Of a stretch of 64,000 nt of DNA, positions 51,266 to 51,761 are shown piece by piece. Made by a program: the position numbers and the translations under genes. Source of the DNA: Acidobacteriota bacterium. GTDB lineage: Bacteria > Acidobacteriota > Blastocatellia > Pyrinomonadales > Pyrinomonadaceae. The DNA lies in assembly GCA_019639235.1 (NCBI GenBank), contig JAHBSG010000016.1, forward strand, positions 1 to 64,000, read 5' to 3'. Each line of letters begins with the position of its first letter. The stretch's first letter is position 1. The notes beneath the pieces are model-generated. The model did not search any database, was not told where the DNA came from, and was given only the letters and a program-made list of their open reading frames with translations.

Positions 51266-51761
51266 AAAACGCCGCCTCAAGCTAGTTGAAGCGGCGTTTT
51301 CGTCAACCTCACCGAGCACCGAAGTGCTCTGAAAGGGTTGGCAGATGACCATGTACACGACCTGTCTGCCGATTTTGTATCCCGAAGCCGTTCGACGGGG
51401 AACTTTTCTCCGGTCAGCACCCGGACCGCCGAAGCTATCCGCTGCACTCTAAGTGCCAGGTGCCTTTAGGTTTTTGTTGTGGTGGCTTTCCTCCACCGCC
51501 GGTTACGAACCCGGCAACGAGGCCCGGGAACAAGTCCCAGGGCGGCTTTGCACCCGACAGGCGGTTCCTTTCCCGCGGGCGTCACTCGTTTTTATCCGAG
51601 CGACTCGCAAGAACTTTCGTTCCTGCCAGCAAGCCTTTCGGCTTCGGTCCGAGGCGTCAGAGCAATGGATGTTCCGCCGATCCGTGCTCTCGTTCAGGAA
51701 GCGTCACCGCTTTCGTATCACTTCCTCGTACCGGTCAAAAGCCCGTGAGCGTTTTGACTAT
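51266..51761 (-). ncRNA. Candidate long structured non-coding RNA, undescribed
   Basis: About 495 nt. The ends pair: GTCAA (51758-51754) with TTGAC (51306-51302), and CTCAC (51749-51745) with GTGAG (51312-51308). Inside are many hairpins: AGGAAG/CTTCCT (51726, 51701), AGAGCA/TGCTCT (51690, 51664), AAGCC-GAAA-GGCTT (51644-51631), AGGAAC-GAAA-GTTCTT (51624-51609), GTCGCTCG/CGAGTGAC (51604, 51588), GGCAGA/TCTGCC (51370, 51345), GAGCAC-TTCG-GTGCTC (51329-51314). A terminator follows: a 15-bp stem with one wobble, loop CTAGC, then T-run (51300-51266). Overlapping open frames on both strands show no protein family. It lacks the RNase P core, tmRNA ends, the SRP loop and the 6S shape. Confidence 0.72.

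Follow-up and report, generated by a model that had tools for sequence, protein, structure and literature searches.

A conserved large structured RNA gene of Pyrinomonadaceae with paired DnaA boxes upstream of its predicted promoter

What lies between obg and rpmA in a genome of the acidobacterial family Pyrinomonadaceae? The stretch of DNA analysed here (the window) comprises 64,000 nt, positions 1 to 64,000 of contig JAHBSG010000016.1 (assembly GCA_019639235.1). A preliminary description, made from the letters of the window alone, had proposed that the gap between these two genes holds an undescribed structured RNA with promoter-like boxes, a strong terminator stem and many hairpins, among them GAAA and TTCG loops. 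The gap and all of these elements were found again in the present analysis, and the proposal itself is upheld by the absence of any Rfam match, strong covariation and the lack of a conserved reading frame. The best joint explanation, which we hold with good confidence, is a free-standing, trans-acting and highly structured ncRNA of approximately 500 nt that belongs to an undescribed class and is present in many, not all, genomes of the family. The genes and expression signals of the region are as follows.

50175..51212, minus strand: obg (GTP1/OBG), with a -10-like box directly before the start codon
51265..51762, minus strand: large structured non-coding RNA gene, recognised from homologues, covariation and non-coding character
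51267..51299, minus strand: intrinsic terminator stem, 11 of 13 main-stem pairs with compensatory changes
51768..51795, minus strand: promoter predicted from sequence (-35 TTGACT, 16-nt spacer, -10 TAAGAT)
51791..51811, minus strand: promoter element CTAAAGTACTTTCTACTTGAC specific to the RNA, with an inverted repeat (AAGTA-N5-TACTT) that overlaps the -35 box
51994..52025, minus strand: terminator closing the rplU-rpmA operon, upstream of the RNA
52336-52049, minus strand: rpmA
52661-52371, minus strand: rplU

Judged from the letters, the RNA-encoding strand is the minus strand, the predicted fold of which has a minimum free energy of -222 kcal/mol and z = -6.5 against shuffles (z = -4.2 for the plus strand). 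Position 1 of the RNA corresponds to approximately 51762, the predicted start, from which about 498 nt extend to the terminator tail. The predicted promoter appears to be of the sigma-70 type and the RNA's own, and it is kept as a CTTGAC...GTATAAT-like sequence across the genera examined. The inverted repeat over the -35 box occurs, in the form TTAAAGTANTTTCTACTTGAC, as a single copy per genome and always at the RNA (seven genomes, three genera). At the other end, the putative intrinsic terminator stem is followed by a T-run, also in the homologues. The region from 51762 to 51265 on the minus strand can thus be read as a single transcription unit.

First of all, a protein gene might be concealed on one strand or the other. 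The region does contain several open frames that overlap one another and reach 124 aa, and a cluster of antisense ORFs recurs in 57 loci. Against such a gene, every frame is interrupted by stops in nearly all of 30 homologues, and a frame open through the RNA is found in no more than one of them. The open frames, already described as lacking family resemblance, are thus not conserved. Indels do not respect codons either, 45 of 469 being multiples of three and 424 not, and the core of the RNA is invariant at every third position too. The antisense cluster recurs because the letters of the RNA are conserved, and is best seen as their shadow. We consider the probability of a protein gene to be negligible.

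The fold, in turn, is supported by compensatory changes. An alignment of 30 sequences of the genus gave an RNAalifold consensus of 110 pairs, 69 of which have two-sided compensatory changes. Alignment cells changed on both sides number 376, compared with 104±11 in shuffled and 48-82 in slid alignments; 95.0% of the cells are paired (84.9% shuffled, 32-42% slid), and the covariation score is 0.383 (0.185 shuffled, 0.06-0.10 slid). Compensatory change beyond both kinds of controls is expected of a structured ncRNA, and the signal is strong. The same helices were recovered from 66 sequences of many genera. A tree-aware null of our own, made in the manner of R-scape, is supportive but rough: 29 of 132 structural pairs reach E<0.05, and the one pair that passes the all-pairs threshold is also structural. 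No covariation information comes from two hairpins that are invariant in the genus, AAGCC-GAAA-GGCTT and GGTGG-AGGAAAAG-CCACC.

One proposed helix has to be given up. The preliminary description had the two ends of the RNA closed by GTCAA/TTGAC and CTCAC/GTGAG, and these strands are present in the window. The complete helix of 10 pairs is, however, restricted to L002-L004, the sequence of the window and the two most closely related to it, and the other 27 homologues keep 2-7 of the 10 pairs. It was rejected as a conserved feature; elsewhere the 5' end folds into a hairpin of its own. The parts of the RNA, from its 5' end, are listed below.

51734..51758, minus strand: 5' local hairpin (GTC.../...GAC plus inner stem) with covariation, in place of the end-closing helix
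51645..51733, minus strand: domain with a 9-bp closing helix and two inner hairpins, 8 of 9 closing pairs compensatory
51631..51644, minus strand: hairpin AAGCC-GAAA-GGCTT with a GNRA tetraloop, invariant in 30 of 30 genus sequences
51581..51604, minus strand: hairpin with invariant loop GGATAAAAAC, its stem covarying most strongly of all, with two-sided changes in 6 of 8 pairs
51554..51579, minus strand: hairpin with covariation, bearing a conserved GGAAATGATCAGCC-like strand
51470..51518, minus strand: three-way junction CGTTGCCGG...CCGGC / GGTGG-AGGAAAAG-CCACC / A-rich strand AACAAAAACC, the most conserved core of the RNA
51415..51465, minus strand: helix GGCACC/GGGTGCT around a length-variable arm
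51382..51413, minus strand: hairpin CCGGAGA...TCTTCGG with inner CTC/GAG stem and CCCCGCA loop
51340..51370, minus strand: hairpin with loop UGUACA
51314..51329, minus strand: TTCG-capped hairpin, length-variable

Loops of the predicted fold include GGAUAAAAAC and UGUACA. The GAAA hairpin at 51631..51644 is a possible site of tertiary contact or protein binding. In most homologues the strand CACCGGGAGGTG (51704-51733) is able to form a small hairpin CACC/GGTG. The GGG loop of this hairpin pairs with CCC in the closing helix as well; several homologues seem to retain both pairings, which suggests a switch or a pseudoknot.

The loop at 51340-51370 is self-complementary in 61 of 65 readable sequences of the family. 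It reads UGUACA in 56 of the 65, UGUGCA in three (self-complementary with G-U), UGCGCA in one and UUGGCCAA in one, and the four sequences in which self-complementarity is broken all belong to genus g47. Self-complementary hairpin loops that switch between palindromes are reported for L9.3 of OLE and L21a of GOLLD, where the swaps were taken as evidence for RNA-RNA contacts (PMC12286853). The loop of the new RNA seems to swap palindromes in a similar manner and may, as a lead only, pair with the loop of a second copy, as would a homo-oligomeric RNA of the OLE, GOLLD or ROOL kind.

Does the RNA belong to a class that is already described? Size and degree of folding would suit a strongly diverged RNase P RNA, tmRNA, SRP RNA or 6S RNA, or a known large class such as OLE, GOLLD, ROOL, raiA or others. 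The window was scanned with cmscan against all 4227 families of Rfam 15, at permissive thresholds as well, and no family reached its cut-off; permissive scans of the RNA region and 14 homologous loci gave only chance-like matches below threshold and no bacterial family. The models scanned presumably include those of OLE, GOLLD, ROOL and raiA, and neither these nor the other large classes of Rfam gave a covariance-model match. RNase P RNA, tmRNA, SRP RNA and 6S RNA, for which the first reading of the sequence had also searched in vain, all score above their curated cut-offs at other places of the genome (56.1 bits for the separate 6S gene), and the region is therefore not a diverged copy filling their roles. 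A known class in disguise is accordingly given a very small probability. No description of the RNA was found in the open literature, a coverage outside which bioRxiv and most subscription journals fall. Being absent from Rfam 15 and from the literature searched, the RNA is rated by us as a new class.

The new RNA resembles OLE, GOLLD and ROOL in its size class (approximately 500-800 nt), its many covarying helices and its long invariant loop letters. Unlike them, it has no Rfam match, is restricted to one family of Acidobacteriota, is chromosomal as far as plasmid and phage records go, and has a promoter with DnaA boxes. Being a large, ornate RNA of bacteria is a trait shared with these classes and does not make the new RNA a member of one family with them. 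Like 6S RNA (ssrS), the new RNA would be independent, highly structured and trans-acting with its own promoter, although it has no similarity to 6S RNA. To our knowledge, bacterial RNA classes of such size and complexity are rare, and we know of no agreed function for OLE, GOLLD or ROOL.

The distribution of the RNA was followed by blastn and by covariance models. In a blastn search of 60 genomes it was present in 35 of 36 other genomes of the genus and absent from the other families sampled. With a covariance model of the core (R1, built from 28 sequences), matches were obtained in 83 of the 162 genomes searched within the class. They represent 19 of 53 genera and lie without exception in the family of the window (f1, by record titles Pyrinomonadaceae); the genus itself contributes 38, out of its 41 genomes. 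In two of the three genus genomes missed, blastn detects a short 5' piece, which in one case lies at the end of a contig. Matches in public genomes are, by record titles, Pyrinomonadaceae MAGs, OLB17 and Aridibacter famidurans. A broader model (R2, built from 36 sequences), applied to 396 genomes of the phylum, gave no convincing match beyond the family; a match in G224 (22 bits, 47 bases) looks like chance, and occurrences of an 18-base core pattern in unrelated phyla were dismissed as chance matches unconfirmed by the covariance model. The family does not strictly require the RNA, since four of its near-complete genomes (in g24, g42 and g46) have no match.

Inheritance is apparently vertical, and the RNA is mostly single-copy. 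Two matches each are found within G099 (L148/L149) and G132 (L166/L167); the latter pair differs in sequence and context and possibly represents two genes, or two organisms in one bin. In L145 (G086, approximately 2530-2680 of the reverse complement) the copy is without its 5' third, and DnaA-box-like sites directly precede the middle of the RNA, which may be due to truncation, rearrangement or assembly error. No RNA was found among plasmid or phage records. The core is present on one short contig filed as viral (L199, IMG/VR contig IMGVR_UViG_3300048099_000016, 240-385), which is probably host DNA. The idea of mobile-element cargo was rejected on these grounds.

The neighbouring genes raise the question of whether the RNA acts in cis. 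It lies outside the rplU-rpmA operon, because the terminator at 51994..52025 closes that operon upstream, and 200 bp separate this terminator from the RNA gene. Towards obg, the RNA might be a long regulatory leader (riboswitch or attenuator), the upstream fold of which opens or closes the terminator before obg. Leaders that are long, structured and equipped with terminators are known, and in at least 20 loci obg does follow on the same strand, 35-324 nt past the terminator. A cis-acting leader would be expected to be constantly associated with the gene that it regulates, and yet 39 loci with at least 700 bp of downstream sequence have no obg there. The flanks of the RNA vary by lineage: in other lineages it is preceded by a gene for a HIT-type protein and followed by VOC/EamA-type genes (translations read by eye), or has still other neighbours, and the initial tie of the RNA to the obg-rpmA gap does not hold there. 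In addition, a -10-like box ends 3-10 nt before the obg start codon in 15 of 20 loci, and the terminator stem covaries as a separate stem for which no alternative pairing was found. The 39 loci without obg, together with the -10-like boxes of obg itself, make it most likely that the RNA gene is free-standing and acts in trans; an obg leader seems very improbable. As for obg, its start in the window (51212-51230) looks leaderless, TAGAAT-N8-GTG, a pattern common to most obg genes that follow the RNA.

Between the rpmA terminator and the promoter of the free-standing RNA gene there are four perfect DnaA boxes TTTTCCACA in one orientation, an array that the preliminary description had missed directly upstream of the promoter.

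51849..51857, minus strand: DnaA box TTTTCCACA, at approximately -95 from the RNA 5' end
51872..51892, minus strand: double DnaA box TTTTCCACA-GAT-TTTTCCACA with a 3-bp gap, at -130/-118 (single boxes 51884-51892 and 51872-51880)
51957..51965, minus strand: distal DnaA box TTTTCCACA, at approximately -203

Over the 500 bp preceding the RNA, box density is 4.0/kb, versus 0.027/kb in the rest of the loci, and 80 boxes were observed versus 1.05 in mononucleotide shuffles. Of 66 loci, 38 have a double box (2-3 bp gap) within 260 bp upstream; these belong to the genus and to nine other genera. The rest of the DNA of the 66 loci, 0.53 million strand-bases, contains no double box. In the genome of the window there are only three perfect double boxes, that of the RNA and two flanking dnaA, which has dnaN as its neighbour. 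Among 41 genomes of the genus, 25 of 80 perfect double boxes are at the RNA, in 21 genomes (0.03 expected), 22 more form pairs approximately 1.75 kb apart like those around dnaA, and a control pattern read backwards never occurs. The RNA region was considered as a replication origin and rejected, since dnaA, with dnaN beside it, is flanked by double boxes too; the GC skew of the window is uninformative on the origin. What is shown at the level of sequence is an RNA gene that is conserved, covarying, non-coding and independent, and that has rare pairs of DnaA boxes on its upstream side.

The array could also be a DnaA-titrating or DnaA-reactivating site that lies near the RNA by chance, the RNA being separate from it and uncontrolled. 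Indeed, datA and DARS consist of clustered boxes at a distance from the origin, and the boxes here are well upstream of the -35 box, none of them on it. The DARS2 region near mutH of Escherichia coli even has a box pair with a 3-bp gap (PMC11317965). Such a coincidence is at odds with the fixed distances of the boxes from the RNA start in the genus (near -203, -130, -118 and -95), and with the boxes accompanying the RNA in loci that lack rpmA and obg (e.g., L140-L142 and L146), and we consider it unlikely. DnaA of E. coli prefers pairs of boxes 2-3 bp apart, and pairs with such gaps, few per genome, are found at purH, polA and DARS2/mutH (PMC11317965). The array upstream of the RNA is similar to these double-box promoters of the DnaA regulon in the 2-3 bp gap and the low number per genome; it differs in that the candidate controlled transcript is a structured RNA and not a protein gene. 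Rare double boxes at a fixed distance from the promoter are seen in the genome of the window, its genus and nine further genera.

An influence of DnaA on transcription of the RNA thus appears fairly likely in the box-bearing lineages. RNA polymerase would make the RNA from the RNA's own promoter, and DnaA, sitting on the double box and the boxes beside it some 50-95 bp before the -35 box, would raise or lower this transcription, whereby the supply of RNA would follow the replication cycle. The paired DnaA sites shared with dnaA hint at a link of the RNA to DNA replication. Double boxes are absent at the RNA in genera g40, g41, g43-g45 and g47, from which it follows that DnaA control is dispensable for the basic role of the RNA. 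In g40, g41 and g47 another RNA-specific 18-mer, AAAATAAAACACACAAAA (e.g., G147:C2:113464-113481), is found at the RNA promoter and is nearly unique per genome; it may be a regulatory element that has replaced the DnaA boxes.

How would such an RNA act? A trans-antisense sRNA, base-pairing for instance with cell-cycle mRNAs, would fit the independent promoter and terminator, both predicted, and the invariant single-stranded A-rich stretches could pair. Non-coding RNAs of the cell cycle are known, such as CcnA (PMC8959179) and EcpR1 (PMC4414408). A length of approximately 500 nt with some 20 conserved helices and junction letters invariant over 19 genera is nevertheless atypical of antisense RNAs, and we think this mode of action improbable. 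A folded machine, either an RNP or ribozyme-like, is suggested instead by the invariant letters, which occupy loops and junctions that covarying helices hold in place. This weaker inference, a machine or RNP rather than antisense pairing, we regard as evenly balanced. CcnA of Caulobacter crescentus is 182 nt long, is located within the origin and is regarded as CtrA-activated (PMC8959179). The new RNA is similar to CcnA, itself linked to the replication cycle, in being an ncRNA gene with DnaA boxes (PMC8959179), but it is approximately 500 nt long, lies away from dnaA/dnaN and has its double DnaA boxes as an upstream promoter element.

Tentatively, and with considerable doubt on our part, the RNA could represent a new class of large RNA machines commanded directly by DnaA and acting, possibly as a dimer or an RNP, in replication or cell-cycle control. 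If true, a structured ncRNA would be the third double-box target of DnaA besides dnaA and the origin. The rare paired DnaA boxes, which otherwise mark dnaA and the origin and which accompany the promoter in much of the family, are a testable handle that OLE, GOLLD and ROOL lack, and they allow a direct question, namely whether a structured RNA is part of the DnaA regulon and the replication cycle. The RNA also fills an unannotated gap in the genomes of Pyrinomonadaceae, which are common soil and wastewater bacteria. A further perfect double box of the genus lies near a match to L-asparaginase II (PF06089) at G012:C1:46992 (L181), and one of the same sequence is found in G020 (C11), possibly marking another DnaA target in the genus.
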